Positions 17,885-34,670 of a stretch of 64,000 bases of DNA are shown here, piece by piece (position 1 is the stretch's first letter; each line of letters begins with the position of its first letter). The position numbers and the translations under genes are program-made. Location: positions 1 to 64,000 of the forward strand of contig NZ_WJXZ01000013.1 of the NCBI RefSeq assembly GCF_009668025.1, given 5' to 3'. The notes beneath the pieces are model-generated. The model was not told the DNA's origin and made no database searches. It was given only the letters and a program-made list of their open reading frames with translations. The stretch is from Larkinella terrae. Its GTDB lineage: Bacteria; Bacteroidota; Bacteroidia; Cytophagales; Spirosomataceae.

Positions 17885-19681
17885 ATGTCTTTTTCGCCAC
17901 ACCGTCGAACGCATATCTTCATCCTGGCCGGAATCATGCTTCTGGCATTTATTCTCCGAATTTACCGCCTGGATACGTACGGTCTCTGGTTTGATGAAAA
18001 AGCGACCTTGCTGGTGAGTCAGGGTATTGTAATGGAAGGTTCCAACCAGAAAGACGTATTTGACAAGGCGGCCGTCGGCTATTTCACCCCGCAGGAATTC
18101 TGGAAACCCAAGACCTTTGCCGATTTTATCGAGGCCAATATCAAAAGCGACATCGGCAACAGCCCGGCCTATTACGGCCTGATCTGGCTCTGGATAAAGC
18201 TGTTCGGCCTGAGCGATTTCTCCCTCCGGTTCTTTTCCGTCATTTTCAGCCTGTTAACCATTCCGTTGCTGTACCAGTTCGTAACCCGGCATTTCCGGAT
18301 GCCGCCCCAACAGGCTTCCCGTCTGGCATTGATCAGCTGCTTTCTGGCCGCTATCGAACCTTTTTTTGTCGCCCAGAGCCACATTGCCCGCAACTACACC
18401 ATGACGTTCTTTCTGACGTTACTGGCTACCCATATTTTCCTGATTATTCTTGAAAAAGAAACCTCCGGCAAACGGGACTCACCCGTTCGGCTGTATGTTT
18501 TCTATTCTTTTCTGGTGGCGGTTTCGCTGCTCTCCCACTACCTGACGCTGACGGTTTTTCTGGCCCACGGTTTATACGCTCTGCTGTACGTTCGTAAGCT
18601 GGGGATCTGGACCCGATTGGCGTTTTCCGCGATTATCGCCGTTGGGTTTGTATCGCTCTGGTTTATCTACGGCGGTGGCAAATACACGTTTTTCAGCCTG
18701 AACCATCAGGCAAAACTGTACCTGAGCATTGCCCTGACCAATCCAGTCAACAACGGTTTTGGGCTGATTTTACCGGCCACGGTTCCCAATGTTTTCTGGC
18801 GGTCCTTACCGGTTTTTAGCGACTTGGTGCTTTTCACCAACGGCCTGGCAACAACGGTGGTCGGCTACCGGAATGCTGCGCTGGCGTTGGGAATCGGATT
18901 GATCGCAACGGCTTTGCTGATCCGGTATCGCCAGCAACAACAACCACCGGTTTGGGTTAAAATCGCCTTTCCCGTACTTTTTGCAGCTGGATTGCCCCTG
19001 TATAGCATCAATCAGGTCCAACACCTGGTTTTCTCGGCAGCAATTCCGTTCTTTTATCTCATGGTAACAGCCCTGCTGGAAGACGTGGAACGCCGGAATC
19101 GGCCGCTTCTGGTTTTCCTGGTGATTCTGGCGCTGGTTCCAACGCTTTTTTTATTACTGATGGCCTTCCGCTCGGGTCATACCTACGGGATTACGCAACG
19201 GTATTCGGGCTTTTCGTTTCCGTATGTTTTTATTCTAACCGCTTTATTATTGATCAAAATCGGGTCACTTCCCTCCTGGTTTCGAAACCCGTTATTCGCG
19301 ATTCTGGCGCTGCAAACCATCTCTCTGATAACCTTGCTGGGACGAATCTATAACGATGTGGAACCCAAATATTCCATGGCGCCTTTAACCCGGAAACCCA
19401 ACCCGTTTCGGGAATCAGCCATGAAAATTCAGGAGCTATACGCGGAAGGCGATACGGTTTTGTATCCGTCGTTACGGCGGCATGAATACACCGAAATCGA
19501 CAAAATTGGGCGTAATTTTTCCGTGATCGACGCCCAGATGGCCAATATCTATTTACCGAAGGACGCGACGTATTACCAGCGCATCGACCCTGGGGAACCC
19601 AATAAGATTGTACTCGTCAAAGGCAGGACCGGCCAGAAAATCACTATCTTTGACCTTGAAGGAATGAAATACAGGTATTAA
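17885..19681 (+). CDS. Polytopic GT39-like glycosyltransferase (GT-C fold)
   Basis: A 598-residue membrane protein with about a dozen hydrophobic segments. The start at 17885 is preferred over an in-frame TTG at 17855, because that TTG lies inside a -7 box. The first periplasmic loop carries DTYGLWFDEKATLLVS, the acidic motif expected in the GT39/ArnT GT-C family (Asp/Glu just after helix 1). Such enzymes transfer a sugar from a polyprenyl-phosphate carrier to a protein, lipid or glycan outside the membrane. The acceptor here is unknown. The stop is 2 bases before the transketolase half, so the two are probably co-transcribed. Confidence 0.78.
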   Translation: MSFSPHRRTHIFILAGIMLLAFILRIYRLDTYGLWFDEKATLLVSQGIVMEGSNQKDVFDKAAVGYFTPQEFWKPKTFADFIEANIKSDIGNSPAYYGLIWLWIKLFGLSDFSLRFFSVIFSLLTIPLLYQFVTRHFRMPPQQASRLALISCFLAAIEPFFVAQSHIARNYTMTFFLTLLATHIFLIILEKETSGKRDSPVRLYVFYSFLVAVSLLSHYLTLTVFLAHGLYALLYVRKLGIWTRLAFSAIIAVGFVSLWFIYGGGKYTFFSLNHQAKLYLSIALTNPVNNGFGLILPATVPNVFWRSLPVFSDLVLFTNGLATTVVGYRNAALALGIGLIATALLIRYRQQQQPPVWVKIAFPVLFAAGLPLYSINQVQHLVFSAAIPFFYLMVTALLEDVERRNRPLLVFLVILALVPTLFLLLMAFRSGHTYGITQRYSGFSFPYVFILTALLLIKIGSLPSWFRNPLFAILALQTISLITLLGRIYNDVEPKYSMAPLTRKPNPFRESAMKIQELYAEGDTVLYPSLRRHEYTEIDKIGRNFSVIDAQMANIYLPKDATYYQRIDPGEPNKIVLVKGRTGQKITIFDLEGMKYRY

Positions 19682-19683
19682 AA

Positions 19684-20499
19684 ATGACTTCAACAGCCAC
19701 AAACACCGATATTACGACCCTCAGCGGCCAATTGCGCCTGAAGGTTCTGGAATTGTATAATATGGCGCACGCCGGTCACATCGGCTGTTCGCTGAGTTGC
19801 CTCGATATGATGATTGCCACGCTGATTCTGCGGAAACAGGCGGAGGATACGTTCATTCTGTCGAAAGGTCATGCGGCAGCGGCCTTGTACACCTGTCTGA
19901 ATCACCTGGGCGAGATTTCAGACGAACAGTTGCATACATTTTACAAGAACGGCACCACGCTGCCCGCCCACCCGGCTCCCAACAAGCACAAGGGCATTCC
20001 GTTCGCAACCGGCTCCCTCGGGCACGGTTTTCCGATTGCCGCGGGAATTGCCCACGCTAATAAATTGCAAGGCAATCAGCATGCCGTTTATGTGCTGATG
20101 TCGGACGGCGAAACCAACGAAGGAACGACCTGGGAAGCAGCCCATTACGCATTGCAGCAAGGTCTGGATAATCTGGTGGTGCTGATCGACAAAAACGGTT
20201 TGCAGGGGTTTGGCCACACCGCCGACGTGTTCGGCGATACCGCCGATGTTGCCAAATGGACAGCCATCGGTTTTGAAGTGGTAGAAGCCGACGGCCACGA
20301 TGTCGAAGGCTTGCTGGTCAAACTCGATACGCTCCGGCTGCAAACCAACGGCAAACCGAAAGTGATCATTTCGCACACGGTCAAAGGAAAAGGTGTTTCC
20401 TACATGGAAAACCGGCTCGAATGGCACTATTTACCGATGACGGCCGAGCTGTACGAGCAGGCGCGCACGGACATTCACGACCGGTATTTTGCTGTTTAA
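19684..20499 (+). CDS. Transketolase, N-terminal (TPP-binding) subunit
   Basis: A 271-residue half-transketolase carrying the thiamine-pyrophosphate domain. SKGHAA (residues 60-65) and the TPP/metal site MSDGETNEG through DKNGLQ (about 139-174) are present. A full-length transketolase has about 660 residues; the other half is encoded at 22829-23740, on the far side of a sugar epimerase-GT2 gene. A genuine two-subunit enzyme is known for some archaea and bacteria. Placed in a glycan locus, it may act on a sugar precursor and not only in the pentose phosphate pathway. Confidence 0.88.
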   Translation: MTSTATNTDITTLSGQLRLKVLELYNMAHAGHIGCSLSCLDMMIATLILRKQAEDTFILSKGHAAAALYTCLNHLGEISDEQLHTFYKNGTTLPAHPAPNKHKGIPFATGSLGHGFPIAAGIAHANKLQGNQHAVYVLMSDGETNEGTTWEAAHYALQQGLDNLVVLIDKNGLQGFGHTADVFGDTADVAKWTAIGFEVVEADGHDVEGLLVKLDTLRLQTNGKPKVIISHTVKGKGVSYMENRLEWHYLPMTAELYEQARTDIHDRYFAV

Positions 20500-20507
20500 C
20501 CTGAATA

Positions 20508-20538
20508 GACCTGACAGGTTTTTAAAACCTGTCAGGTC
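20508..20538 (+). terminator. Perfect hairpin of the CCTGTCAGG type
   Basis: A 15-bp perfect stem (20508-20522 with 20524-20538) reads GACCTGACAGGTTTT with its complement. It lies 9 bases after the transketolase subunit stop. It lacks a long T run after the stem, so it may attenuate rather than end transcription. Related hairpins occur at 50979-51009 and 53121-53166. Confidence 0.7.
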
Positions 20539-20694
20539 CTGGTCTTGTCAATTCACCTATTCATCAACAGTAACCATCTGATTCCAAATCGCATACGGTT
20601 TTTATCCTGCTATTTATTTTCGTTGCACCGAATCCTGGAAAAAACCGGTTCGGCAGAATGAAAACCAAGGTGCTACCGCTCTATACAACCTCTA

Positions 20695-22692
20695 ATGTCT
20701 GAACAAAACCTACCATACCGGGATAAAATTCTCCAGCTAAAAGGGCCCATTTTCGTTTTCGGAGCCAGCGGCTTTATCGGCGCTAATTTATTCGACCAGA
20801 TTTTTCAACTCCGCAAGGATTGTTACGCGCTCACCCACGATGCGACGAAAGCCTGGCGGCTGAAACTGCTCGATGTTCCGGCCGAAAATGTCGTTCACTG
20901 CGATATCCTCTCCAACAATTCGGTTCAGGGAATTTTTGAACGGTATAAACCTCGCACCATCTTCAATCTGGCGGCTTACGGGGCATATAGCAAACAGAAA
21001 AACGTCAATCTGACGTACGAAACCAATGTCAACGGTACGGTCAACATTCTGGAGAATTGTACTCCCGAAACCGTTTATATTCACGCCGGGAGTAGTTCGG
21101 AATACGGTTTCAACTGCACGGCGCCGAAGGAAACCGACCGCGTCGAACCCAACAGCCATTACGCCGTTTCGAAAGTTTCAGCGGCCTACATGCTGGAATT
21201 TTACGCCCGCGTTCACGGCCTGAATACGCTGAATCTGCGGCTATACTCGATTTATGGCGGCTGGGAAGAACCCGACCGGCTCATTCCCCGGCTGGTAGAA
21301 GAAGCCCGGAAGAACAATTTGCCTCCGCTTGTTTCGCCCGACATCAGCCGCGACTTTGTCTATATCGACGATTGCGTCGAAGCCTTCGTTCAGGCGGCTT
21401 TGCAAGTCAACAAAACCATTAGCGGCCGTTCCTACAACATTGCAACCGGTCGGAAAACGACCATGCGGGAGTTGGTAGAGGAAACCCGTCAGGCTTTCGG
21501 CCTGTCAATCGAACCCGTCTGGGGCAGCATGGGAAACCGGAACTGGGACCTCAGCGACTGGTACGGCGATCCCGTAGCGGCCAATACCGACCTTGCCTGG
21601 AAAGCCCGCACCCCACTCGTCGTCGGGCTGCAAAAAACCGCCGAATGGCAGGTTCAACAAGATTATGCCGATCGCGTGCTTCCGGCGTTCGCCAACCCAA
21701 CGTTGAATCCGGTAATTACGGCAATCATTGCCTGTTACAAAGACGCCCAGGCCATTCCGTACATGTACGACCGACTGGTGAAGACATTCAATGAAATGAA
21801 AGTTCGGTACGAAATCATTTTCGTTAACGACAATTCGCCGGATAATCAGGAGGAGGTCATCGACGGGATTTGTGCGCGAGATCCGAATGTTATCGGCATT
21901 ACGCATTCGCGCAACTTCGGTTCCCAGTCGGCGTTTCTGAGCGGTATGGAAATATCGTCGGGCGACGCGGTGGTGTTGATGGACGGCGATCTGCAGGACC
22001 CACCCGAAATCATTCCCCGTTTCTACGAAAAATGGCAGCAGGGATTCGACGTGACGTACGGCGTTCGGGTGCAGCGCGAAATGCCCGCGCACGTTCACTT
22101 CTTTTACCGGACGTTTTACCGGCTTTTCAAGAAAATGTCGTACATCAACATCCCGGTCGATGCCGGTGATTTCTCGATGATCGACAAAAAAGTGGTTCGC
22201 GAACTCGTTGCCCTGCCCGAAACGGAGCAGTTTCTGCGCGGACTGCGGGCCTGGGTTGGTTTCAAGCAAACCGGTGTCGATTACGTCCGGCCGGAACGGA
22301 TGTTTGGCGTTTCGACCAACAACTGGACCAAGAACATCTGGTGGGCAAAAAAGGCCATTTTCTCGTTCAGCTTTGCCCCGCTCGAACTGATGTCCTACGC
22401 CGGTTTTATCCTGACGGGACTTTCGCTGGTCGGCATTCTGTGGCAGATTCTGGCTAAATTTGTATTCTTCCCGAACACGCCCGCCGGTTTGTCAACGGTG
22501 ATCATTCTGGTGATGCTGTTCGGCGGTATTAACCTCCTGGGCGTATCATTCCTGGGGGAATACATCAGTAAGATATTCGAGGAAACGAAAAAACGGCCCA
22601 AGTTCATCCGGACGAAAGTTCGTAAAGGCGGGCAGCTCTACAAAACCGCATCCGAAATCCGGGCGCTGGTGGAAGCGAGAAAAACAAAATAG
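20695..22692 (+). CDS. Fused sugar epimerase/dehydratase (SDR) and DPM1-like GT2
   Basis: A 665-residue two-domain protein. Residues about 16-330 form an extended SDR NAD-dependent sugar-nucleotide epimerase or dehydratase, with GASGFIG (23-29) and the catalytic YAVSK (Y156, K160). Residues about 338-665 form a family 2 glycosyltransferase of the polyprenyl-phosphate type (DPM1/ArnC/GtrB), with FVNDNSPD, LMDGDLQDPP (DGD at 430-432) and two C-terminal membrane helices (about 575-600 and 615-640). The frame runs through both with a linker of about 10 residues. It may both make a sugar nucleotide and load it on undecaprenyl phosphate. It sits between the two transketolase halves. Confidence 0.85.
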   Translation: MSEQNLPYRDKILQLKGPIFVFGASGFIGANLFDQIFQLRKDCYALTHDATKAWRLKLLDVPAENVVHCDILSNNSVQGIFERYKPRTIFNLAAYGAYSKQKNVNLTYETNVNGTVNILENCTPETVYIHAGSSSEYGFNCTAPKETDRVEPNSHYAVSKVSAAYMLEFYARVHGLNTLNLRLYSIYGGWEEPDRLIPRLVEEARKNNLPPLVSPDISRDFVYIDDCVEAFVQAALQVNKTISGRSYNIATGRKTTMRELVEETRQAFGLSIEPVWGSMGNRNWDLSDWYGDPVAANTDLAWKARTPLVVGLQKTAEWQVQQDYADRVLPAFANPTLNPVITAIIACYKDAQAIPYMYDRLVKTFNEMKVRYEIIFVNDNSPDNQEEVIDGICARDPNVIGITHSRNFGSQSAFLSGMEISSGDAVVLMDGDLQDPPEIIPRFYEKWQQGFDVTYGVRVQREMPAHVHFFYRTFYRLFKKMSYINIPVDAGDFSMIDKKVVRELVALPETEQFLRGLRAWVGFKQTGVDYVRPERMFGVSTNNWTKNIWWAKKAIFSFSFAPLELMSYAGFILTGLSLVGILWQILAKFVFFPNTPAGLSTVIILVMLFGGINLLGVSFLGEYISKIFEETKKRPKFIRTKVRKGGQLYKTASEIRALVEARKTK

Positions 22693-22703
22693 GGATTTAA
22701 AGT

Positions 22704-22813
22704 TGTTTCGCGGACGGGGCCGCCCATGCGGCTAAACGGAGGAAAACAGAGTTAAGCAGAGTTCTGAATATGCTCCGCTTAGCTCAATTGTTCTCCGCTT
22801 AGCTCCGCGAAAC
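22704..22813. repeat. Word-iterated inverted repeat (CTCCGCTTAG type)
   Basis: GTTTCGCGGA (22704-22713) is the exact complement of TCCGCGAAAC (22804-22813). Between them, left-arm words (CTAAACGGAG, GTTAAGCAGAG) are mirrored by right-arm CTCCGCTTAG words, which occur twice. It fills the gap between the fusion gene and the second transketolase subunit. If it stops transcription, the two transketolase halves would be unequally expressed. Confidence 0.85.
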
Positions 22814-22828
22814 TAAAAACTTACCAAA

Positions 22829-23740
22829 ATGCGGAAAGAATTTTCAGCTGCCATCGAGCGCCTGGTTGCGAGCGATGAGCAAATCATCTTCATCACGGGC
22901 GATCTGGGCTATGCGGCCCTTGAAAATGTCGCGGCTGCCATGGGGCCACGCTTCATCAATGCGGGCGTTGCCGAGCAAAACATGGTCGGTGTTGCCGCCG
23001 GAATGGCGTATAAAGGTTATAAAGTGTTCTGTTACAGCATCGCACCGTTTGCGGTTTATCGCTGTCTGGAGCAGTTTCGGAACGATGTTTGCCTCCATAA
23101 TTTACCGGTTTTTCTGGTCGGCAACGGGGGCGGTTACGGTTACGGCATCATGGGTTCAACTCACCACGCCATTGAAGACCTGGCCTGCCTGAGCGGTTTA
23201 CAGAACGTGAAAACCTGGATCCCGGCCTTTGCCGACGAAATCGATTCCATTGTTGATTCGATCGTCGCCGAAGGTCGACCGGCTTATTTGCGGCTGGGCG
23301 CGGGTCCGAAAACCCCTGAAGGCAGCGAAACCACCGGTTCGTTCAAGAAAGTGGCCAGCAGCGAAAACCCCAAAGGAACCGTCGTGGCGCTGGGTCCGGT
23401 GGCTGCGAATGTCCTGAAAGCCCTGCAAACCTCCGACGCGCTAGGCAATCAGTTCGACGTTTACACGGCCCTGAACCTGCCGCTTGAATTGCCCGCGAAC
23501 TTGGGTAAACAATGGGCCGAAACGCAGAATCTGCTGATTGTGGAAGAACACGTAAGCATCGGCGGATTAGCGCAGCAGCTCTCCGTTAAATTGCTGGAAA
23601 ATGGTTTGTCATTCCGGCAGTTTGTGAGCCTGTCGGCGCAGGGATACCCTGACGGTTTATACGGCGACCAGAGTTATCACCAGCAGCAATCCGGTTTGGA
23701 TACGGCCAGCATTCAGGCAAAACTGGCTGCTTTTCTGTAG
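22829..23740 (+). CDS. Transketolase, C-terminal (pyrimidine-binding) subunit
   Basis: A 303-residue partner of the N-terminal half at 19684-20499. The TPP-activating Glu is in NAGVAEQNM (E49). The stretch GSTHHAIEDLA matches the transketolase Pyr domain. A C-terminal alpha/beta domain follows (LLIVEEHVSIGGLAQQLS). Both halves are intact, so they could form an active heteromer. Gene order N-half, epimerase-GT2, C-half is unusual, because the two halves are normally adjacent. Confidence 0.88.
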   Translation: MRKEFSAAIERLVASDEQIIFITGDLGYAALENVAAAMGPRFINAGVAEQNMVGVAAGMAYKGYKVFCYSIAPFAVYRCLEQFRNDVCLHNLPVFLVGNGGGYGYGIMGSTHHAIEDLACLSGLQNVKTWIPAFADEIDSIVDSIVAEGRPAYLRLGAGPKTPEGSETTGSFKKVASSENPKGTVVALGPVAANVLKALQTSDALGNQFDVYTALNLPLELPANLGKQWAETQNLLIVEEHVSIGGLAQQLSVKLLENGLSFRQFVSLSAQGYPDGLYGDQSYHQQQSGLDTASIQAKLAAFL

Positions 23741-23809
23741 GCATGTTAGTACACAGCGTTTATCAGGACGTATCAGGGTTCATCAGAGTGGATTTGTATA
23801 GTTGACCGT

Positions 23810-25510
23810 ATGGAACCGAAAACACAATCATTCCCGGTTAAAAACATCCGATCTCAGGCGGTTTCTTCCGCATCTCTTCTGCTGAGCGGACTGGCTTTGC
23901 TGGTCCCCGTTCTGGTTTATGGTTTGGTTTTCAGTCGCTACGCCATCAATGTTCCGAAGTTCGATGACCACGCGTTAAAGGCATTTCTCCTGAAACTGGA
24001 TCAGGCCGAATCGTTGCGCGACCAGATTTACGAATTTTTCGCCCAGCACAACGAACACCGAATTTTTTACGACCGCCTGATTTCCTGGCTGGATTATCAC
24101 CTGACCGGCAAACTCAATTTTGTGCACCTCATGCTGGTAGGCAACCTGAGTTTGGTGCTGCTCTTACTGGTGTTTATCAGGGCTTTGCGCCAGGCTGGAG
24201 TTTCTCTCTGGATGGCTTTGCCGGTGTCGCTGCTCCTGTTTAATCTCTCCCATTGGGAAAATACGTTCTGGGGCATGGCGGCTCTGCAAAACTTCACCGT
24301 CGTGGCGCTGGCCGTGGCAACGTTCTACGAACTTTCGTTCAAAAACCGGGTTGGCTGGCTGGCCATTGCGCTGGCGGTTTTAGCGACCCTCACCAGCGGG
24401 AACGGTTTGCTGATCTGGCCCGTCGGACTGATTCTGATTTTTCTGCGGCAGGATTACGTTGGCGTCCTCCGCTGGTTATTAGCCCTGGCCATTACCTTCC
24501 GGCTCTATTTTTTGGATTATCAAAAACCGGCCGGGAATCCGCCCGATCCGGGTTCGTTGCTGGCTCAACTCCACGGCTGGCTGCTTTTCAACGGCGCGGC
24601 CGCCGAGGCTTTTCCGGTCCGGAACTTCCTGCTGACCTGCCTTTTGCTGGGTGGAATTATCATCGCGCTGGCAGCTTTTTTTGGAATCCCGGCGGTTGTG
24701 GAAAAATTCCGGGGAATCAAGCTGACCGAATGGCAACTGTTCTTCCTCGGCGGAGCGGCTTTTACCATTGGGACCGGTTTAGTTGTGGCTTTCAACCGCG
24801 TCGGCTTCGGACTGGGAACCCTGACCACCAGCCGGTACAAGATTTACTCTCTTACGCTGTTGGCTTTTTTGTTCACTTACGGGATTGTTCGCACGAATCC
24901 CTCAAAGCGGTTTTTGACCGCCGGACTGGCGACGGTATTCAGTTTTCTGATCGCTTTTTTTTCCTACAGCACATTCCTCGACGAAGCGGTTTACCTGCGG
25001 CAGTTCATGAGTACGTACCAGTTCAATTTCACGTTTACTAAGAACTCGACCCAGCCCGCCATCGATCCGGTAACCCGGCAATACGTGCAGAACGCCCCGG
25101 CTTTTTACGACGAGCATTTAGCTGAATTACTCACCAGTATCCGCCCGGCTGACCCTATTAAAATTGACTCCGTTTTTAAGTCCGGCACGATTTTCACGGT
25201 AATTCAATCCACAATTTCGCCATTCGGTTTGCGCGATGAAGGTTCTTATTTGCTGGCGCGTTCTGCCCAGCGAACGTATTTATTTCCGGTGAAACAGAAC
25301 CTGAGTCGGAGCCCCCGGGGCTGGTTTTGGCCCCAGCGAATCTTTTCGGGCGGTTTTATTGCCGAAATACCCGAAACCGACCTTGCCCGGGGAAATTACG
25401 GACTGTTTGTTCTCACGGTCGAATCCGGTAATTCGGTCAAGCTTCATCCTACGGGACGTACCATCACTGCCTCCGGAGTCAAATACCAACGCCCGGAGTC
25501 GAACTGGTAA
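23810..25510 (+). CDS. Polytopic membrane protein, possible GT-C glycosyltransferase
   Basis: A 566-residue protein with about ten hydrophobic helices and a C-terminal soluble domain of about 140 residues (after LDEAVYLRQF). The loop after the first helix holds VPKFDDHALKAF and, further on, QHNEHRIFYDRL. These acidic and His residues sit where GT-C enzymes have their catalytic Asp. I do not recognise a named family. Its position between the transketolase subunit and two acyltransferases suggests a role in sugar transfer or glycan export. The 69-base gap before it holds three TATCAGG-like words but no inverted arm. Confidence 0.6.
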   Translation: MEPKTQSFPVKNIRSQAVSSASLLLSGLALLVPVLVYGLVFSRYAINVPKFDDHALKAFLLKLDQAESLRDQIYEFFAQHNEHRIFYDRLISWLDYHLTGKLNFVHLMLVGNLSLVLLLLVFIRALRQAGVSLWMALPVSLLLFNLSHWENTFWGMAALQNFTVVALAVATFYELSFKNRVGWLAIALAVLATLTSGNGLLIWPVGLILIFLRQDYVGVLRWLLALAITFRLYFLDYQKPAGNPPDPGSLLAQLHGWLLFNGAAAEAFPVRNFLLTCLLLGGIIIALAAFFGIPAVVEKFRGIKLTEWQLFFLGGAAFTIGTGLVVAFNRVGFGLGTLTTSRYKIYSLTLLAFLFTYGIVRTNPSKRFLTAGLATVFSFLIAFFSYSTFLDEAVYLRQFMSTYQFNFTFTKNSTQPAIDPVTRQYVQNAPAFYDEHLAELLTSIRPADPIKIDSVFKSGTIFTVIQSTISPFGLRDEGSYLLARSAQRTYLFPVKQNLSRSPRGWFWPQRIFSGGFIAEIPETDLARGNYGLFVLTVESGNSVKLHPTGRTITASGVKYQRPESNW

Positions 25511-25517
25511 ACGGGTT

Positions 25518-25590: not shown

Positions 25591-25596
25591 CATCCC

Positions 25597-26730: not shown

Positions 26731-26770
26731 ACAATGCGTTCGGTAGCTGGCAAATCTGGGGGAATGTTTG

Positions 26771-26778
26771 TACTTTTG
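26771..26778 (+). promoter_or_regulatory. -7 box that decides the second acyltransferase start
   Basis: TACTTTTG fits TAnnTTTG. It overlaps the region of an in-frame TTG at 26768, so translation from there is unlikely if this promoter is used. The next in-frame start, GTG at 26804, is 25 bases downstream. Confidence 0.45.
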
Positions 26779-26803
26779 GCACTTTCCATCAATATATTCA
26801 CAC

Positions 26804-28009
26804 GTGGACGCAGGGCAATTGGGTTGGTTCAAGCGAGAATCTAAGGACGCAGTTTCACCGAACACCTCTTCTATTTCGACGGATAGCCCGTCGGTTCCCA
26901 GCCAGTCGAAAACGGCCATTTCGTACCTGACCCAACTGGATGGCGTCCGGTTCATTGCCGTTGCGCTGGTACTCTACGATCACTGGATGGCCGAGCGCAA
27001 CTCCATTCCGCTGGGTCCGCTGGGCGTTACCATTTTCTTCGTTCTCAGCGGTTTTCTGATCACCCGGATTCTGCTCAGCAGCAAGGATAAACTAGCGGGT
27101 CGGCCCGATCGGTTAAGTTTTTACCTCAAAACGTTCTACATCCGCCGGACGATCCGAATCTTTCCATTATACTATTTTTCGCTGTTCATTCTGTTCGTGT
27201 ACAATGTGCCGCCCGTTCGCGAAAAACTGGCATGGTGCGTTTTGTACGCAACCAATATTTACATTGCGTATTACCAGGAATGGATGGGTGTGATCGACCA
27301 TTTCTGGTCGCTCGCCGTCGAAGAACAGGTTTATCTGATTTTCCCGCTTTTACTCTTTTACGTACCGCGTCGGCACGTTCCGCTGACGATGTGGTCTCTG
27401 ATTGTCTTCAGCGTTATTTTCCGGTATTTCCTCTACGCGCAACACTATTCCTGGGTAGTGGCTTACGTATTCACCCCCGCCTGTCTGGATTCCTTTGGCC
27501 TCGGTGCGCTGCTGGCCTATTTGTGGCTTTATCAGAAAGAATGGCTGCACCGGTTGTTCCGCAATTCGAATGGCGTCGTTATCAGTCTGCTGGTTTACAT
27601 CCTGTTGGTCATCCTTTCAAAGACTTTCGAGGCTCCGCACAACGTGGTTTCGGAAGTCTGGGATCGGCTGGCCGGTTCAGTGCTGGGCTTTTTCCTGATT
27701 GGCCGGGCCGCGGTCGGTTTCAAAGGCTGGATGCGCTGGTTTCTGGAAAATCCGGTAAGTCGGTATCTGGGGCAAATCAGTTACGGTTTATATATATTTC
27801 ATAACCTGGTTTATAACTTTTACCATACGCCCCCCAGCCATCCGACCCTCCGGATCTGGAATAAACTGGCAACGTACGTTCCGGCGATTGATCAGTTCTT
27901 TGTATTAAAATTTTTCTATTTTGTGGTTCTGACAATTATCGTAGCTTCGCTGTCGTGGTTTTTGCTCGAAAAGCCCATTAATTCGCTAAAAGACCGGTTT
28001 TCTTATTAA
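26804..28009 (+). CDS. Acyltransferase 3 (OafA/YrhL-type), second tandem copy
   Basis: About 401 residues from the GTG at 26804; the frame is open from a TTG at 26768 but that codon adjoins a promoter box. An N-terminal tail of about 40 polar residues (Ser/Pro-rich) precedes QLDGVRFIAVALVLYDHW, with the same catalytic His as the first copy. FFVLSGFLITRI, RRTIRIFPLYYF, SLAVEEQVYLIFP and YGLYIFHNLVYNFYHTPP follow. It is a paralogue of the preceding gene with an extra N-terminal tail. The two may acylate different positions or sugars. Confidence 0.88.
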   Translation: MDAGQLGWFKRESKDAVSPNTSSISTDSPSVPSQSKTAISYLTQLDGVRFIAVALVLYDHWMAERNSIPLGPLGVTIFFVLSGFLITRILLSSKDKLAGRPDRLSFYLKTFYIRRTIRIFPLYYFSLFILFVYNVPPVREKLAWCVLYATNIYIAYYQEWMGVIDHFWSLAVEEQVYLIFPLLLFYVPRRHVPLTMWSLIVFSVIFRYFLYAQHYSWVVAYVFTPACLDSFGLGALLAYLWLYQKEWLHRLFRNSNGVVISLLVYILLVILSKTFEAPHNVVSEVWDRLAGSVLGFFLIGRAAVGFKGWMRWFLENPVSRYLGQISYGLYIFHNLVYNFYHTPPSHPTLRIWNKLATYVPAIDQFFVLKFFYFVVLTIIVASLSWFLLEKPINSLKDRFSY

Positions 28010-28100: not shown

Positions 28101-28185
28101 TTTCGTTATGTAATTCATCAAACCGGCAATACGAACTTATCCACAGCATTTTGCTCAACGTTGCCACTATGTTTGCTACCTACCA

Positions 28186-28959
28186 ATGAGTTTACAATTA
28201 TCAATAGTAATGCCGGCCTACAACGAGGAAGAATGTATCCACGAAGTTGTAGAAACCTGGGTTGATCTGCTCACCCGCCAATTCCCGACCGGAAATACCC
28301 GTCTGATCGTCATCAATGATGGTTCCAAAGACCGCACCGGTGCCATTCTGGATTCGCTGAAACCGAAGTATCCGACCAAGCTTGAGGTGGTTCATACGCC
28401 CAATGGTGGACACGGTAACGCCGTGGTTCGGGGGTACCGGCACGCCGTTGCGCTGGGTTCGGAATACGTTTTCCAAACCGACAGCGACGACCAGTTCGTT
28501 ACCGATGACTTTGCGAAATTATGGGCCAAGCGGCACGAGTCGAATTTCATTCTGGGCTATCGCCAGATCCGTTTCGACGCCTTCGCCCGTCTGGTGATTA
28601 CCCGGATTCTGAAACTGAGCCTTTTCCTGATCTACGGCACGTACATCAAAGACAGCAACATTCCTTTCCGGCTGATCAACGGGGCTTACCTGAAGAAACT
28701 GCTGGAACAACTGCCAGATCCAACGCCATTTGCTCCCAATATTTTTCTGGCGGTAATGGCAAAAAAAGCCGGTCAGAAAACATTCGATATTCCCATCGTT
28801 CACAAAGAACGCCTGACGGGTACGGTTTCTATTTTACGCTGGAAACTGATCAAGGTTTGTTTGCAGAGTTTCCGCGAACTGGCCGAGTTCCGGATGGATC
28901 TGGGTGCGAAAGTGAAGGCCCTGAAAGCCGTCGACGTTAAGCAACCCGTAAAAATATAA
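28186..28959 (+). CDS. Family 2 glycosyltransferase (DPM1-like)
   Basis: A 257-residue GT-A glycosyltransferase. SIVMPAYNEEECI opens the nucleotide-binding fold, VINDGSKDR follows, and the metal-binding motif is QTDSDDQF (residues 98-104). It lacks C-terminal membrane helices, like the short dolichol-phosphate mannose synthase type. It probably adds a sugar from a nucleotide donor to a polyprenyl phosphate or a glycolipid. It differs from the GT2 half of the fusion protein in length and topology. Confidence 0.85.
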   Translation: MSLQLSIVMPAYNEEECIHEVVETWVDLLTRQFPTGNTRLIVINDGSKDRTGAILDSLKPKYPTKLEVVHTPNGGHGNAVVRGYRHAVALGSEYVFQTDSDDQFVTDDFAKLWAKRHESNFILGYRQIRFDAFARLVITRILKLSLFLIYGTYIKDSNIPFRLINGAYLKKLLEQLPDPTPFAPNIFLAVMAKKAGQKTFDIPIVHKERLTGTVSILRWKLIKVCLQSFRELAEFRMDLGAKVKALKAVDVKQPVKI

Positions 28960-29069
28960 ATTGAGCGTAAGCGAAAGCAGCGACTCGTTGCCCAGGCGAT
29001 GACGCAGATTGAACGGATCTCCTCAGATTTTATCTGCGAAAGTCCGCCCGGTCTGCGTTTTGTTTTTAA

Positions 29070-29180
29070 TGACGATTGACTGTTGAAAATTGACCATTGA
29101 CCGCTGACCATTGACCATTGACTAAAGGATATCAATAGTGGGCCGAGATCAATGGTCGATCGACAATGGTCAATGGTCAA
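29070..29180. repeat. Word-iterated inverted repeat (TGACCATTGACC type), second copy
   Basis: Left words (TGACGATTGAC, TGACCATTGACC, CTGACCATTGACC) run from about 29070 to 29123. Right words (CAATGGTCGATCGACAATGG, TCAATGGTCAA) run from about 29149 to 29180. The same word family occurs at 3100-3242 and 49660-49713. Here it separates two codirectional genes. The preceding 110 bases (28960-29069) hold nothing recognisable. Confidence 0.85.
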
Positions 29181-29213
29181 ATCTTTGGCCACAACAAACT
29201 CAAACCCACTTAC

Positions 29214-31940
29214 ATGTCCAAAAAGCAGCTCTGGATTGGCATTGGTGTTTTAGCCCTCATTCTGGGGAGCTATTTTGCTTACCGCTGGTGGAAAGCCCCC
29301 GTGCGGTCGGCCTGGATGCTGATTCCGTCGGATGCCCTGCTGGTCATGGAAAGTTCTTCGTTGCAGGATACCATTTCGAAACAGGTCAAGCTGAACGAAA
29401 TGGCACTGCGGACAACCCCGGTTTTCCAGGAAGCCGTCCGGAATCTCGAAAAATTTGTCTGGTCGCCCCTTGATACCGCCAGCGCACTTCAGTTTTTGCG
29501 AGACAAACCCATCTGGTATTCCCTGCATCCTACCTCCAAAGATCGGCTTAACTTTATCTTTTACATTCCCGTCAGTTCTTTGCAGGACCAGCCATTTGTC
29601 AACCGGATTCAAAACCCCAATGCCGACCGGTTTCGGGTGCTCAGCCATCCCTACGAAGGAACGCGGATTCATGAATTGCTCACCGTTCAAAACGAATCAC
29701 TCGGCTCGTTTGTGGTTTTGGATGATTACCTGGTTTGCAGCCCGTCCACCATTTTGATCGAAAGCGTGATTCGACGTATGCAGCAGCCGTTTACAGAAAC
29801 ACCCCTGCAGCGGGCCGATGTTTCGCTCGTCCGGCCGGGAACGCTGGCAGGCATTTACGTGCGCAGTTCAGTGTTAACGGCTATCCTGTCTCCGAAGGAT
29901 GAAAGCACGGATTACCAGTCCAAATATATTAAGGCGCTGTTACCGACCGAGTTACTGTCCCGATTCCGGCAATCGCCTTCCCACTCCCACCTCATCGGAC
30001 TTTCGACGGATGACATTGGCGCCAAAACCGCCCTTGCAAATCTGTTCGATCGGCAAACGCCTTTACGAATAAACTGCGGTAATCTGATACCGGACCAAAC
30101 CACAACATTTTTCCACTTCAGCCTGAGCGACGGACCGCGATTTGGCAAAGCACTCACGGCTTTCATTAATTCAGAAGACGAAGCCGACACGCGGGAAGGC
30201 CGCCGAAAACTGCGACCACTGCTTCAGAACGAGGAAAACGGCATTTATAAATACATCGGCAACGAGATTGCCCTGCTCCGTTTAGACGCGCCTTCGGCCG
30301 ACCGGCGGCTGGTGATGCTGATTCATTCGCCGAACGTCGACCGCTTGTGGGACCGGTACCAGCTCGCGGCCCTGCTGACTTCCGGAACCGACCACGTTTC
30401 GAATACAAAACCGTTTCTGCGCTATCGGATTTCGTCCATCGACGCGCCCAATTTACCGGCTTACCTCTTTGGCGGTTTGTTTCGCGGTTTTGAGCAAAAC
30501 TGGCTGGCCCAGGTCGGTGATTATCTGGTGATTGCGAATGGTCAGGGCGTTTTACAGGAATATTTACAATCCGTCGATCAGGGCACGGTCTGGTCGGAAT
30601 CATTCCGGCAACGGGATTTGCTGAGCCAAACCCTGCGGCCATCCAACTTTACGGCCTACACCCGGTTTTCACGGGCCGGGGAATCGGTGGCGGCCAACTG
30701 GCCTCAATCGTGGCAATTCCTGCTCAATCATGACGAAACCGCCCTGGATAACGTGGAAAACCTGATTTACCAAAGCACGTACGGGCGCGAGCGGATTTAC
30801 TCCACGCTCATTCTGGGCCACACCACCCGGCGCGCCAGCGAAGCGGTTTTGAACCGGGTTTTCCTGCAACGCAAAATCTCGCTGGATGCTCCCCTGCTGA
30901 GTCAGCCGATGGTAATTGGGGATTTTATCGGCAGTTCGGGAGCTATTTGGGCGGTTGATAATGCCCGACAATTTATTCTGATCACGCCCGAAGGCGAAAA
31001 ACACACGCTGGGAACGGTTAATGGCCCGGTCGTAAGTGCGCTGGTGCCGGTCGATTTTCTGACCAATGATCGTTTGCAATACGCTTTTACCACGCCGAGT
31101 TCGCTGTATATCGCCGATCCGGTCAATGGTTTGGCCAAGCTTCAGTCGATTCCATTGCCAGAAGGACTCTTGCCAAATACCCTGATGGCCCCCCGTCGCG
31201 ACCAAAACCGGAACCTGATCCTGCTGTTGATGCATCAGAATGGGAGCGTATACGGTTACGACCGCCAGAAAAAGCAGTTTGTCCGGCAATTTGCGGTGAA
31301 CAATAGCGGTGTTGAGGGCGTCTCTGACTTTCACGCCACGGTTCGCAATCAATCGCTGTCGGTGGTGTCGGCTCAGAAAGAGGGGCGGCTGTTTTACTGG
31401 AATGAAAACGGAGGTTCGGTCAGCGGTTTTCCGCTTGATTTAAAAACAGAATTGATCGGTCCGGCCTGGCTCGAAAACGGCAACCCGGCAACCCTGACCA
31501 CGCTAACGAAACAAGGGGAATTGATTCACGTAGGTGCCGACGGACAGATTCAGGAACGAACGCAGCTTTTCCGCCCCATTCGGCGCGGTTCGTTCCGGTT
31601 GTTACCCGAGGTCAATCAGAACGGTTATTTGTTACTGCGGTCATCGGACACGGAAGCCGCAATTCTGGATCGAAAAGGCAATTCGTTGTTTGAAGTCCGC
31701 GGATTGCGCCCCGGCCAGACGACCATCCGGTATCACGTTTTAGGCTCTGGCATTAACCTGATCAGCGTCAAATCCGGTAATTTTACCAGCCTGTACGACC
31801 TGGCCGGTCGTCCGGTAGGTGACCGGCCCATTCCTGGAGCCTATCCGGTGGGTCTTCAATTTTCGCCCACCCGAAATAAATTGTTTGTGTACAGTACGGA
31901 TAACAAAGCCGTCCAGATCTGGTCGGTCAAGTTACGATAA
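29214..31940 (+). CDS. Membrane-anchored protein of unknown function, DUF3352-like
   Basis: A 908-residue protein. The frame is open from GTG-type codons upstream, but the ATG at 29214 begins a natural N-terminal anchor (MSKKQLWIGIGVLALILGSY, then FAYRWW). Residues about 30-560 weakly resemble DUF3352 (WMLIPSDALLVMESSS). The last 350 residues look like a beta-propeller (repeated strands, for example GSVYGYDRQKKQF, RLFYWNENGGSVSGFPLDL, LFVYSTDNKAVQIWSV). It is probably anchored in the inner membrane with a large periplasmic part. The stop is 10 bases before the SGNH lipoprotein gene, so they are likely co-transcribed. No function can be assigned. Confidence 0.7.
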   Translation: MSKKQLWIGIGVLALILGSYFAYRWWKAPVRSAWMLIPSDALLVMESSSLQDTISKQVKLNEMALRTTPVFQEAVRNLEKFVWSPLDTASALQFLRDKPIWYSLHPTSKDRLNFIFYIPVSSLQDQPFVNRIQNPNADRFRVLSHPYEGTRIHELLTVQNESLGSFVVLDDYLVCSPSTILIESVIRRMQQPFTETPLQRADVSLVRPGTLAGIYVRSSVLTAILSPKDESTDYQSKYIKALLPTELLSRFRQSPSHSHLIGLSTDDIGAKTALANLFDRQTPLRINCGNLIPDQTTTFFHFSLSDGPRFGKALTAFINSEDEADTREGRRKLRPLLQNEENGIYKYIGNEIALLRLDAPSADRRLVMLIHSPNVDRLWDRYQLAALLTSGTDHVSNTKPFLRYRISSIDAPNLPAYLFGGLFRGFEQNWLAQVGDYLVIANGQGVLQEYLQSVDQGTVWSESFRQRDLLSQTLRPSNFTAYTRFSRAGESVAANWPQSWQFLLNHDETALDNVENLIYQSTYGRERIYSTLILGHTTRRASEAVLNRVFLQRKISLDAPLLSQPMVIGDFIGSSGAIWAVDNARQFILITPEGEKHTLGTVNGPVVSALVPVDFLTNDRLQYAFTTPSSLYIADPVNGLAKLQSIPLPEGLLPNTLMAPRRDQNRNLILLLMHQNGSVYGYDRQKKQFVRQFAVNNSGVEGVSDFHATVRNQSLSVVSAQKEGRLFYWNENGGSVSGFPLDLKTELIGPAWLENGNPATLTTLTKQGELIHVGADGQIQERTQLFRPIRRGSFRLLPEVNQNGYLLLRSSDTEAAILDRKGNSLFEVRGLRPGQTTIRYHVLGSGINLISVKSGNFTSLYDLAGRPVGDRPIPGAYPVGLQFSPTRNKLFVYSTDNKAVQIWSVKLR

Positions 31941-31950
31941 AAGCATTGGT

Positions 31951-33003
31951 ATGAAGATTGGCGTCATTGCGCGGTATTTGATATTGCTGGTTTCCATTCT
32001 CATTTACGTCGGAAGTTGTTCGACCGATGTGATGAATTCGGTTCAACGTGAGGGACTTATCCCGGACGATTACCGGTTTGGGGATTTGTACCGGATGGCG
32101 AATTTACCCCAGTTTAAAGCGCGGCAAATTCCCTGTCCACCCGCTTATCCGGCCAACGCGCCCCGCAAACCCATTCATTTTTACATCATTGGCGACAGTT
32201 TTTCCGAACCGCCCCGCGTGACGATCAAGGATTTACCGGTGGAACATTTTCACCGCACGAAATGGGGATTTAACCGACGCGTTCAACTGGATACGACCCG
32301 AACCAATGTGTTGGTTATCGAAACGGTTGAACGCCATTTTCGGGATCAGTTCGGCCGCTACATCAACGATCTGGAAGTGGTGCCGGATACGACTACCATC
32401 GCGCCCAAACCCGAAAACCGCCTGACCTGGCAGGCATTTTCAAAAGGAATGGAAACGCTCTTTTCCCGGGATGCCGTTGAGGCCCGTTTGGAAACCATTC
32501 TTTTTTTTACAGATTGGGCGCTCTGGTTCAAAGACCTGAAAGGCCGGCTGACCCTGGACTGGTTTGGTCGGGTGAACCCCAAAACTACTCTCACACCCGA
32601 TGGAAAGCATCTTTTGTATTACCTGGATACGGATACTTCCCTAACCAATTCTTCCTTCAAACCGATGCCGGAGATGTTGCTGAATCGATACATCGACAGC
32701 GTCAATGTGGTGGCCGATCGCTATAAAAAAGCCGGTTTTGATCAGGTTTATCTTTCCATTATCCCCAATAAAACCAGCATTTACGCTCCAAACATGGGAC
32801 CATTGCCGTACAACCACCTCATCGAACGTGTACAGCATAGCCCCCGCTTAACGATTCCAACCATCGATATCTACACGCCCTATAAAGCCAGCCGGATTCC
32901 CTTGTATGAAACCAGCGATGCCCACTGGAACTGCGCTGGCCGGGCCATCTGGATGAAAGCCGTAACCAATCGGTTAAATGAAATAAGCGCGACAAAGCAG
33001 TAA
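31951..33003 (+). CDS. SGNH (AlgX/AlgJ-like) lipoprotein
   Basis: About 350 residues from the ATG at 31951; the open frame extends to 31819 but overlaps the preceding gene. An N-terminal hydrophobic segment ends in a lipobox-like VGSC (C23). IIGDSFSE (G81-S83) is the SGNH nucleophile block and TSDAHWNCAG (D323, H325, W326) matches the Asp-x-His-Trp block of AlgX/AlgJ alginate O-acetyltransferases. This suggests periplasmic O-acetylation of a glycan, in keeping with the two acyltransferase-3 genes nearby. Assignment rests on these two motifs. Confidence 0.65.
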   Translation: MKIGVIARYLILLVSILIYVGSCSTDVMNSVQREGLIPDDYRFGDLYRMANLPQFKARQIPCPPAYPANAPRKPIHFYIIGDSFSEPPRVTIKDLPVEHFHRTKWGFNRRVQLDTTRTNVLVIETVERHFRDQFGRYINDLEVVPDTTTIAPKPENRLTWQAFSKGMETLFSRDAVEARLETILFFTDWALWFKDLKGRLTLDWFGRVNPKTTLTPDGKHLLYYLDTDTSLTNSSFKPMPEMLLNRYIDSVNVVADRYKKAGFDQVYLSIIPNKTSIYAPNMGPLPYNHLIERVQHSPRLTIPTIDIYTPYKASRIPLYETSDAHWNCAGRAIWMKAVTNRLNEISATKQ

Positions 33004-33008
33004 TTTTC

Positions 33009-34670
33009 TCAATTGACGAGCAGGTCACGCCGGATAAAACTGTAACCGCCCGGTTTGGGTCCATCCTTTTTTATAAAAGCCGGAGGTGGATTTTGAATAA
33101 ACCGCTGAAGACTGGTATCGGCTTTGTAATAATCCAGAATAATAGGTCGGAAAACGATCAGATTGATGTCTTTCTGGTCCACAAATTTGAAGAAATCGGT
33201 ATTGCGGGGATAGTCGGCGTAGGAAACCGCATTGCCCCCGATATAGGTAATTAACTGGTCTTTGTTATCGAAAATCCGGATACGATCTTTGTCTTTTACC
33301 GGCGCCGTCAGGTCTTTTACGTATTCAACCAATTCATTGTCGCCCGGCATTTTTGGAACCTGCCGTTTCCACCCCCACAGGAGAAATAAAGCGATTCCAG
33401 TTAGGAAGATAAATTGCAGGCCATATTTCACGCCCGGTCTGGTTAAAGCCTCCCACGACATCCGATGAACGAGCCAGGGCCGCAGATGAATGCTTGTTAC
33501 AAGCAAACCAATGAAAAGCGGAAAGAAAAAATAAAACGGAGGCAAATACCGGATTTTTGTTCCCATTGAATACACCGAACTGATGCAGGGAGCCAGAATT
33601 GCCAGACTCGACATCAAATAGGGTAGCGGGTTTTTAGTCACTTCGGCAGCCAGATTCTGTGCGGTTTTCCGGAAAGAAACTACAGCTATTCCGATAATTA
33701 AAAGGAGAATCCAGGCTAATTTAATATAAAAAACACGCTCAATAAATCGCAAACCTGGCAGCTTACTCACCGGTTCAACGTACGAATAAATGATGTTCAA
33801 CAGTTGCTTACTCAGGTTGGTAATATTAAAAAGGATGTGATTTTCAATCACTAAAGCCGGATGTTTGACCAGAGCATCGGCGAAACCCTTGACGGGTTCG
33901 CCAAAAATAATGCGCGACATAACTTCGTAATCCACCCAATTATTGTAGGGTTTCAACCGTTCATCTTCCATGTGCTGCATATTGTAGTTATAGGAAAAAT
34001 CCTGCTTGAAGGCACTTTGACCTTTATCAGACAGAGGACTTCCTATTCCGAAGAAAATAAGTAAGATTCCAACGGTTATACCGGCCAGCGGAAGAGGTGA
34101 TTTTCGGAATCGAATGGTGGCCCCGATTAAAACCGCCATACATAAGCCGAACGAGACAATAACTTCGGGCCGGATGTAGGTAAAAACGAAGTAGCTAAAC
34201 GTGGTGATCACTAAAGCCTTGTAAATCTGATTTCTGAAATATCGATCGCAGACGATGTATAAAATCAGGGTCGACAGAAACAGAAAAATCGAAACTTTGA
34301 CGCCCTGAGGGAAATTAATTTGAGAAAAATGGAATACCAATGCGCTGTATAGGGCCCACCACCAGCGAAAACCGGCGAGTCGAATGGCTATATAAATGGC
34401 CAGCGTCGTCAACGATGACATCAGCACCATATTCAGGTAATAAAGCCGGACGGTATCGCTTTCAAAAAAGGAAAGAAATTTATACCAGAGTGAATAAATT
34501 GGGCCCCAGTCGGTTTGCAATCCCAGTCGAAAACCGGTTATTCCCTGGTACATATAAAAACCCTCATCGCCCATTTCGATGTTGGAAATGGCCGTTATCT
34601 GGTGGTTTAATACGTAGCTGGCCAGGGCAATTAAAAACAGGCTGATTCCATCGAAATAGCGGTCTTTCAT
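33009..34670 (-). CDS. Polytopic membrane protein, probable GT-C glycosyltransferase
   Basis: A 553-residue protein with about ten membrane helices. ISNIEMGDEGFYMYQG in the first loop has the acidic pair expected at the GT-C catalytic site. A soluble C-terminal part of about 100 residues follows the last helix (after LFLLWGWKRQV). It may transfer a carrier-linked sugar on the outer face of the membrane. It is convergent with the SGNH gene; the stop codons are only 5 bases apart with no hairpin between, so the two transcripts probably overlap. It may mark the right end of the glycan region. Confidence 0.65.
   Translation of the reverse strand: MKDRYFDGISLFLIALASYVLNHQITAISNIEMGDEGFYMYQGITGFRLGLQTDWGPIYSLWYKFLSFFESDTVRLYYLNMVLMSSLTTLAIYIAIRLAGFRWWWALYSALVFHFSQINFPQGVKVSIFLFLSTLILYIVCDRYFRNQIYKALVITTFSYFVFTYIRPEVIVSFGLCMAVLIGATIRFRKSPLPLAGITVGILLIFFGIGSPLSDKGQSAFKQDFSYNYNMQHMEDERLKPYNNWVDYEVMSRIIFGEPVKGFADALVKHPALVIENHILFNITNLSKQLLNIIYSYVEPVSKLPGLRFIERVFYIKLAWILLLIIGIAVVSFRKTAQNLAAEVTKNPLPYLMSSLAILAPCISSVYSMGTKIRYLPPFYFFFPLFIGLLVTSIHLRPWLVHRMSWEALTRPGVKYGLQFIFLTGIALFLLWGWKRQVPKMPGDNELVEYVKDLTAPVKDKDRIRIFDNKDQLITYIGGNAVSYADYPRNTDFFKFVDQKDINLIVFRPIILDYYKADTSLQRFIQNPPPAFIKKDGPKPGGYSFIRRDLLVN

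Follow-up and report, generated by a model that had tools for sequence, protein, structure and literature searches.

The stretch of DNA analysed here (the window) comprises positions 1 to 64,000 of contig NZ_WJXZ01000013.1 of Larkinella terrae (assembly GCF_009668025.1; 7.85 Mb in 22 contigs), a member of the Spirosomataceae, and the system in question is a trio of genes in which the two halves of a split transketolase, tktN and tktC, enclose a fusion of a short-chain dehydrogenase/reductase (SDR) to a family-2 glycosyltransferase (GT2). The gene tktN (19684..20499, plus strand) encodes the thiamine-diphosphate-binding half (Pfam Transketolase_N, 1.1e-31); the fusion (20695..22692, plus) combines an Epimerase (9e-42) with a Glycos_transf_2 domain (3.9e-26); and tktC (22829..23740, plus) contributes the pyrimidine-binding and C-terminal half (Transket_pyr, 1.1e-25, with a Transketolase_C match below the cut-off). 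In profile searches, the closest solved structures are the split transketolase 6YAK for tktN (3.2e-51) and 6YAJ for tktC (7.9e-27); this Carboxydothermus enzyme, the best solved relative of both halves, shares their two-chain architecture. A first-pass annotation of the same DNA had recognised a fused epimerase-GT2 with a two-subunit transketolase around it, and both identifications stand. Open reading frames are present in the window's list at all the coordinates that it gave, and every gene of the region from 15796 to 33003 lies on the plus strand, with intergenic gaps of 2-206 bases. The trio joins known families in a new combination and forms a tightly conserved module, whose probable product is a branched sugar of an unusual kind, destined for the cell surface.

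Conservation of the gene trio

In a survey of 200 Spirosomataceae genomes, the fusion occurs in 111, and all 111 also carry both transketolase halves; close homologues of tktN and tktC are found in 113 and 112 genomes, respectively, and all three genes in 111. None of the 200 genomes has the fusion without both halves, and a half without the fusion is confined to two fragmentary metagenome-assembled genomes of 66 and 83% completeness. The co-occurrence is unbroken over 21 genera and, being kept in every fusion-bearing genome, exceeds chance; the co-occurrence in relatives on which the first-pass annotation had made its interpretation depend is thereby borne out. Within one genus (g5), genomes that carry the module and genomes that lack it both occur. 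Used as a query at 1e-20, the SDR domain matched 115 genomes, four of which, with matches of 27-31% only, are not counted as module genomes; on the scale of the phylum, at 1e-50, it was found in 2 of 395 genomes, both Spirosomataceae. SDR-domain matches reach 85-91% in Larkinella species, 68-82% in Fibrisoma, Spirosoma, Rudanella, Runella, Dyadobacter, Arcicella and Siphonobacter, and 79% in a Flavobacterium-labelled record.

At the level of loci, 107 were retrieved, from which one without a fusion call (L094) and seven without a half were set aside; in the 99 that have both halves nearby (some of them from the same genome), the three genes lie on one strand, in the order tktN-fusion-tktC in 96 and tktN-tktC-fusion in 3. 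De-duplication leaves 90 distinct fusion proteins, of which the 84 accompanied by both halves form the reference set for all locus counts below. Five of the six left out are cut by contig ends; in the sixth (L144, on a contig shared with L053) tktC is not adjacent, and that genome holds a tktC copy on another contig. The always-kept core thus consists of tktN, the SDR-GT2 fusion and tktC, a narrower unit than the region delimited by the first-pass annotation. In another genus (g13), locus L071 is a near-minimal islet made of tktN, tktC, the fusion and one 533-residue membrane protein without Pfam match, its other neighbours being unrelated; a second locus of that genus, L064, is not minimal, since another membrane protein, a methyltransferase and a GT2 stand near the module, and in L063 the membrane protein next to the fusion is missing. 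By eye, small toxin-antitoxin-like gene pairs lie between the fusion and tktC in two relatives (L066:11555-12132 and L051:7550-8205).

The fused SDR-GtrB protein and the transketolase active site

The fusion protein consists of an SDR of the NAD-dependent epimerase/dehydratase type (residues ~1-335) followed by a GtrB-type polyprenyl-phosphate glycosyltransferase (~340-640). GtrB-type enzymes are defined by an aspartate-rich catalytic motif and C-terminal membrane segments. In the fusion, positions 340-638 match the GtrB structure 5EKP (sll0501) at 5.6e-76, with weaker matches to ArnC-type enzymes; the motif DGDLQDPPE is present in 84 of 84 loci, and hydropathy places C-terminal hydrophobic segments at ~565-620. 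Judged from its sequence, the C-terminal half is of the GtrB type, and transfer of a sugar to polyprenyl phosphate is predicted. Like three-component glycosylation systems, the module thus has a GtrB-type domain and is followed by proteins of the GT-C glycosyltransferase class; unlike them, it joins this domain to an SDR in one protein and to a transketolase in one gene set, and GtrA is absent among the core genes of the window, its matches lying at two other places in the genome. Among NCBIfam models, the best match of the fusion is PgfS, at 228.1 bits and below the NF047588 cut-off of 500, so the protein is not classed as a PgfS. The streptococcal Pgf system (PgfS, PgfE and PgfM1/M2) likewise brings together a GtrB-like synthase, an epimerase and GT-C proteins, and is not known to include a transketolase.

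For the SDR half, WbgU is the nearest solved structure by profile, followed by a dTDP-glucose 4,6-dehydratase and UDP-glucose 4-epimerases. This ranking is what one would expect if the SDR simply supplied the fused transferase as a UDP-hexose 4-epimerase of the ordinary kind, the transketolase being unrelated and merely co-transcribed; yet mere co-transcription fits poorly with a co-occurrence unbroken across so many genera, with the existence of two gene orders and with the presence of the same trio in an alphaproteobacterium, and we regard it as very improbable.

The module transketolase was aligned to the genome's own full-length enzyme across the 84 loci, in Escherichia coli numbering, which for the catalytic and cofactor positions we partly assume. 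Equivalents of D155, N185, E411, H66, H100, H261 and H473 are kept in 84 of 84 loci, that of H26 in 83 with one gap, and tktC carries the motif NGGGYGYGIMG[STA][TS]HH throughout; by this alignment, the thiamine-binding and catalytic residues of transketolase are kept in the module enzyme. By comparison, R91 is replaced by tyrosine, D469 by methionine and F434 by isoleucine in every locus; no locus has a histidine at the H461 or an arginine at the R520 equivalent, and S385 is kept in 6 of 84 (the S385 and H461 columns are uncertain by one). The set of residues by which canonical pentose-phosphate transketolases recognise phosphate and aldose (R91, S385, H461, D469, R520) is accordingly not the one found here. 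According to passages of PMC5073344, S385 of the E. coli enzyme touches the substrate phosphate, D469 bridges to R91 and R520 lines and narrows the funnel, and changing S385, D469 and R520 gives activity on unphosphorylated aromatic aldehydes.

Thiamine enzymes of two chains have also been proposed to add acetyl branches in antibiotic pathways, in eurekanate (PMC10338323) and paulomycose (PMC4753412) formation, as excerpts of these papers describe; by analogy, the heteromer could be a pyruvate-dehydrogenase-E1-type enzyme like AviB1/AviB2 or EvdU5/EvdS3 that decarboxylates pyruvate and places an acetyl branch on a keto-sugar. This is improbable: E1 models fit tktN far less well than transketolase models do, all the models matched by tktC are of transketolases or DXP synthases, and the histidines that align with the donor site of transketolase, which we take to bind the donor, are conserved. 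A decarboxylase of the YerE type is not indicated either, as TPP_enzyme_C matches tktN at only 0.0012, under the cut-off, while Pfam and NCBIfam both return transketolase.

The genome holds, besides the module enzyme, a full-length transketolase of 669 residues and two other split ones, one of which keeps the canonical aspartate. A general metabolic role for the module enzyme, which the first-pass annotation had allowed for should no full-length transketolase exist elsewhere, was rejected on this ground. By comparison, the Carboxydothermus split enzyme is that organism's only transketolase, according to the portion of PMC7661550 that deals with it, whereas the module enzyme is additional to a full-length one and has its channel residues replaced. 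Another split transketolase of the L. terrae genome (L068) has lost the D469 equivalent and lies in an operon that reads, by eye, as sugar catabolism; operons of this type, with a fucose-isomerase-like protein, an ABC transporter, a sugar kinase and a DeoR-like regulator, recur in L177 and L180.

A more specific metabolic alternative is that the module transketolase makes an ordinary sugar phosphate that is scarce (a pentose, tetrose or heptulose) for activation by other enzymes and loading onto lipid by the fusion. Membership of the transketolase family is certain and the catalytic residues are kept, both of which suit this alternative, as does the only ribulose-phosphate 3-epimerase gene of the genome (13532..14224, plus; sole PF00834 match), situated 5.5 kb ahead of tktN in the same orientation. 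In 55 of the 84 loci a homologue precedes tktN by 4.1-5.7 kb, again in the same orientation; 22 loci whose upstream flank measures 7 kb or more have none, and the gene recurs with ligA (50 of 84), so its position is perhaps plain synteny. Xylulose 5-phosphate is the usual transketolase donor, and the epimerase may supply it or may be a mere neighbour. Sugar-phosphate supply is nevertheless unlikely: no sugar kinase or nucleotidyltransferase is found among the recurring window genes or in the islet L071, the canonical full-length enzyme and the split one with the canonical aspartate are also present in the genome, and the channel residues are replaced in all 84 loci.

Contexts outside the family and the proposed chemistry

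Beyond the Spirosomataceae, 11 contexts were read first, from 9 of the 12 matched non-family genomes and both plasmid matches: they comprise a single copy of the whole module, three loci with rfbF/rfbG, five other sugar-synthesis settings and two catabolic operons like L068. Sugar synthesis is thus the setting in 9 of 11, three of which include the CDP-glucose 4,6-dehydratase. The whole module lies on the plasmid pMaq22A_1p of the alphaproteobacterium Methylobacterium aquaticum, with identities of 45% for tktN, 42% for tktC, 42% for the SDR and 52% for the GT2 domain; there, the ATG of the fusion overlaps the tktC stop. On the Methylovirgula plasmid pHY1, rfbF, rfbG, an SDR, rfbH, tktN and tktC follow one another, with a GT2 and GtrA beyond on the opposite strand; this tktC is 46% identical over 65% of the query, and the SDR is the best one outside the module in a profile search of the given loci. 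L175 has RfbF and RfbG over the NCBIfam cut-offs and, after other genes, tktN, tktC, an SDR, GtrA and a GT2, while L178 has RfbF and RfbG over the cut-offs, an SDR and two transketolase pairs (the second tktC short). The five other sugar-synthesis contexts contain, mostly by eye, DegT aminotransferases, an SDR with a SIS isomerase, or an aminotransferase with a NeuB-like gene. By eye, the split transketolases of L181 and L182 have an SDR, a NeuB-like synthase and an aminotransferase as neighbours, a grouping that may represent an unusual pathway to nonulosonates.

On plasmids, tktN matches 225 records at 1e-35, of which five were opened. The four further contexts seen there are a Solidesulfovibrio glycan-type cluster with pseB/pseC, a Streptomyces peptide-antibiotic-type cluster, a Deinococcus sugar-uptake operon and a small Apilactobacillus cluster annotated aptA/aptB by amino-acid genes. 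In a tree of 23 joined transketolases, the Spirosomataceae module groups with Methylobacterium (100/99), and the two join the glycan-type split enzymes, while the catabolic enzymes and the canonical split one fall elsewhere. An apulose 4-phosphate transketolase was considered as a possible precedent; the annotated Apilactobacillus AptAB branches outside the clade, on a long branch.

Related loci without transketolase offer a further comparison. In Sinorhizobium meliloti pSymB (L183), Leisingera and Palleronia (L184, L185), rfbF-rfbG lead towards an SDR and a GtrB-like GT2 with GtrA nearby, an aminotransferase and a methyltransferase lying between in the latter two; no transketolase half occurs within the 17.8-17.9 kb read. 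These are perhaps lipid-linked modification systems derived from CDP-sugars but devoid of transketolase, and the slot between keto-sugar and SDR-GT2 may therefore take different enzymes adding branches or substituents.

All of the chemistry that follows is inferred from what is observed, that is, domain identities, co-occurrence, residue replacements and the contexts of relatives. We propose, with a probability of just under one half, that the trio is one biosynthetic unit that makes a sugar branched or extended by two carbons and loads it onto polyprenyl phosphate. A nucleotide-activated hexose, most likely UDP-linked, would first gain a keto group, either because the SDR acts as an epimerase halted half-way or because an existing keto-sugar pool is drawn upon. 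The heteromeric transketolase would then move a two-carbon ketol unit onto the keto carbon, a hydroxyacetyl unit perhaps taken from xylulose 5-phosphate, acetyl being less likely. The SDR domain would reduce the new side-chain or ring carbonyl, and the completed sugar would be passed to polyprenyl phosphate by the fused GtrB-type domain; once flipped, it would be transferred by a GT-C enzyme to an envelope glycan or protein, and the acyltransferase-3 and AlgX-like proteins may acylate the product. A narrower and more tentative proposal is a self-contained TktN/TktC/SDR-GtrB device that would convert a common nucleotide sugar, with no need of a CDP-deoxyhexose pathway, into a polyprenyl-phosphate-linked sugar bearing a C2 branch, the NADH formed by the SDR on ring oxidation possibly passing to side-chain reduction in a redox-neutral cycle.

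The gene set fits the course pictured by the first-pass annotation, from the synthesis of an unusual sugar through its loading on a lipid carrier to export and acylation, without confirming the chemistry of any step. That annotation had also left the transketolase a choice between a branched or chain-extended sugar and a supply of pentose; the family-wide replacement of channel residues, together with the sugar-synthesis settings of 9 of the 11 outside contexts, favours the former and makes the latter less likely. As for chain extension, the transketolase could act on an aldehyde and add two carbons to the sugar chain, so that the lipid would carry a higher ketose. Transketolases usually accept aldehydes, the split one of Carboxydothermus included (PMC7661550, in the part concerned with its substrates). 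The SDR partner, however, is of a class that makes or removes ring ketones, and three related clusters encode the maker of CDP-4-keto-6-deoxyglucose, itself a ketone; we consider such an extension rather improbable and prefer branching at a keto carbon.

Branching of this kind has parallels. The adjacency of tktN, the SDR and tktC places a split transketolase by a sugar oxidoreductase, as in miharamycin-type branching, and a branched product is predicted. For miharamycin and amipurimycin, an oxidoreductase and a split transketolase are proposed to place a hydroxyacetyl branch on a keto-sugar; unlike the present case, these are antibiotics, the branching is a proposal unproven in vitro, and the relevant passages of the source mention no lipid-carrier transferase (PMC12247030). 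According to the same source, proof of branching by transketolases is still pending for the antibiotic enzymes, of which 13 are putative, all split-gene and all from streptomycetes. In yersiniose A formation, the thiamine-diphosphate enzyme YerE also puts a two-carbon branch on a nucleotide keto-sugar for an envelope glycan (PMC12247030, in part); YerE differs in belonging to the decarboxylase superfamily and in using pyruvate and CDP-3,6-dideoxy-4-keto-glucose, whereas the module has a split transketolase, no rfbF/rfbG over cut-off and an SDR fused to a lipid-carrier transferase. In everninomicin biosynthesis, an SDR (EvdS6) gives UDP-4-keto-xylose, the proposed acceptor of a heterodimeric thiamine enzyme (EvdU5/EvdS3), but that SDR is a glucuronate decarboxylase, the thiamine enzyme resembles pyruvate dehydrogenase and the product is an antibiotic (sections of PMC10338323). 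The branch of paulomycose is acted on by a ketoreductase and an acyltransferase (PMC4753412, in part).

The nature of the acceptor is a guess, as the substrate and product of the module are predictions only, and this is the first of several points that weigh against branching by the trio. RfbF, RfbG and RfbH belong to the yersiniose A pathway. In the L. terrae genome, nothing exceeds the curated cut-offs for the cytidylyltransferase and the CDP-glucose dehydratase of the CDP-3,6-dideoxyhexose pathway (best scores of 42 bits against 300 for RfbF and 104 against 278 for RfbG), and the cytidylyltransferase is missing from 85 of the 111 module genomes, so the rfbFG association seen in outside relatives does not carry over to the family. 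The residue pattern is also double-edged: the R358 equivalent is kept in all 84 loci, arginine occupies the R520 position in the module of Methylobacterium, and D469 and R91 are replaced in sugar-catabolic split transketolases of this and other genomes as well, so that their loss marks a wider clade rather than branching. The Methylovirgula SDR is only ~26% identical to the module SDR; the clade that unites the module with glycan-cluster transketolases has a support of 94/96, under the 95/80 threshold; and with five of 225 plasmid contexts opened, the share of sugar-synthesis contexts comes from a small sample. Finally, the upstream ribulose-phosphate epimerase gene fits an ordinary pentose-phosphate link as well as it fits donor supply, and argues against narrowing the product to a branched sugar.

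A CDP-glucose-derived acceptor was accordingly rejected for this genome, and the acceptor is probably a UDP-linked or other nucleotide sugar from the general pool. The cytidylyltransferase, present in 26 of 111 module genomes and 15 of 89 others, is not associated with the module (Fisher p 0.29). Across 109 loci, nothing matched the RfbF, RfbH or GtrA queries at 1e-10 (for a protein as short as GtrA the test is weak), and the RfbG query gave five weak matches, three of which, those shown, fall on the fusion SDR at ~25% identity.

No report of a transketolase in the synthesis of a branched envelope sugar was found in the open-licence literature, among the matches listed. If branching by the trio is correct, it offers a genetically simple case for testing the formation of tertiary-alcohol (branched) sugars by a transketolase and extends branching transketolases to the surface glycans of a bacterial family, coupled directly to a lipid carrier. 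It would represent a transketolase route to branched envelope sugars in the Bacteroidota, found also on an alphaproteobacterial plasmid, and it predicts that many genera in culture, among them Larkinella, Spirosoma, Dyadobacter and Runella, contain an as yet unrecognised sugar.

Neighbouring genes of the module

Among the 84 distinct loci, homologues beside the module are most frequent for the membrane protein GTC2 (77), followed by a second GT2 (75), the acyltransferase-3 proteins (74), the membrane protein GTC1 (70) and an OmpA/PD40 protein (66). The last, encoded upstream at 15796..17832 (plus; OmpA 1e-18, PD40 6.4e-18), is the upstream neighbour in most relatives. GTC1 (17885..19681, plus) is a PMT_2-type membrane glycosyltransferase (8.6e-10), with a possible earlier TTG start at 17855, and by its family likely uses a polyprenyl-phosphate sugar. 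GTC2 (23810..25510, plus), a membrane protein with a C-terminal beta domain, has no Pfam match, nor have its relatives. Its AlphaFold model (mean predicted local distance difference test score, pLDDT, of 87.4) aligns in VIA-align with Pmt4 (Z 17.4, root-mean-square deviation 4.7, 337 residues aligned), ArnT (Z 16.9) and AftB (Z 16.4); the top 22 rows (Z 17.4-10.1) are all GT-C enzymes or chains of GT-C-containing complexes, chains that we take to be the ones holding the GT-C fold. Foldseek alone gave no match under 0.001 (ArnT at E 6.6e-3). The modelled structure thus points to a GT-C membrane fold for GTC2.

The first-pass annotation had counted three GT-C proteins, and the count holds for GTC1 by family and GTC2 by modelled fold. 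The third, a multi-pass membrane protein on the minus strand (33009..34670), matches no NCBIfam model and no Pfam family over cut-off. Downstream of the module, no homologue was found in any of 10 relatives, 5 of which yielded both flanking genes, SGNH and major facilitator superfamily (MFS); as these two almost adjoin in several relatives, the gene looks like an insertion in the window, and it lies outside the conserved core. The absence of a Wzx/Wzy-type flippase or polymerase, also noted there, agrees with the 12 region proteins scanned, none of which matched such a family, though no search with Wzx/Wzy profiles was made; a comparison with PHROGs gave nothing informative.

Downstream of GTC2, the two acyltransferase-3 membrane proteins of the first-pass annotation (25597..26730 and 26768..28009, both plus) are borne out by Acyl_transf_3 matches of 7e-27 and 2.4e-25. 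They precede a 924-residue protein without Pfam match (29166..31940, plus) and an SGNH-like lipoprotein (31951..33003, plus) with invariant GDS and DxH residues and a lipobox read from sequence. The former lies beside the module in at least 46 and the latter in at least 36 of the 84 loci, counts that are too low because the fetched flanks end; both have homologues in 10 of 10 relatives examined further downstream. The earlier description of the lipoprotein as AlgX-like finds some backing in its relatives, 11 of 16 of which match Pfam ALGX weakly (best 3.5e-4); the window protein itself has no ALGX match, a profile scan of the PDB was unhelpful and the fold search with its model (pLDDT 71) gave no E under 0.001. 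From its motifs, the protein is a possible AlgX-type O-acetyltransferase.

The second GT2 (28186..28959, plus; Glycos_transf_2 7.9e-21), for which hydropathy gave no membrane segment, is perhaps, by sequence, another polyprenyl-phosphate sugar synthase. In several relatives, this gene is followed by an FAD amine-oxidase-like protein (L051:1099-2490, with a Pfam Amino_oxidase match; L057:807-2198; L052:15153-16580) and, in L060:16511-17611, by a true UDP-galactopyranose mutase. These neighbours hint that the second GT2 may load a furanose; the L051 protein has no match in the genome of the window. S-adenosylmethionine-dependent methyltransferases of at least two types also occur in or beside the module (L048:11481-12206, L065:1053-1784, L062:7566-8324, L172:16414-17196), and one near the module of pMaq22A_1p is 32% identical to that of L062.

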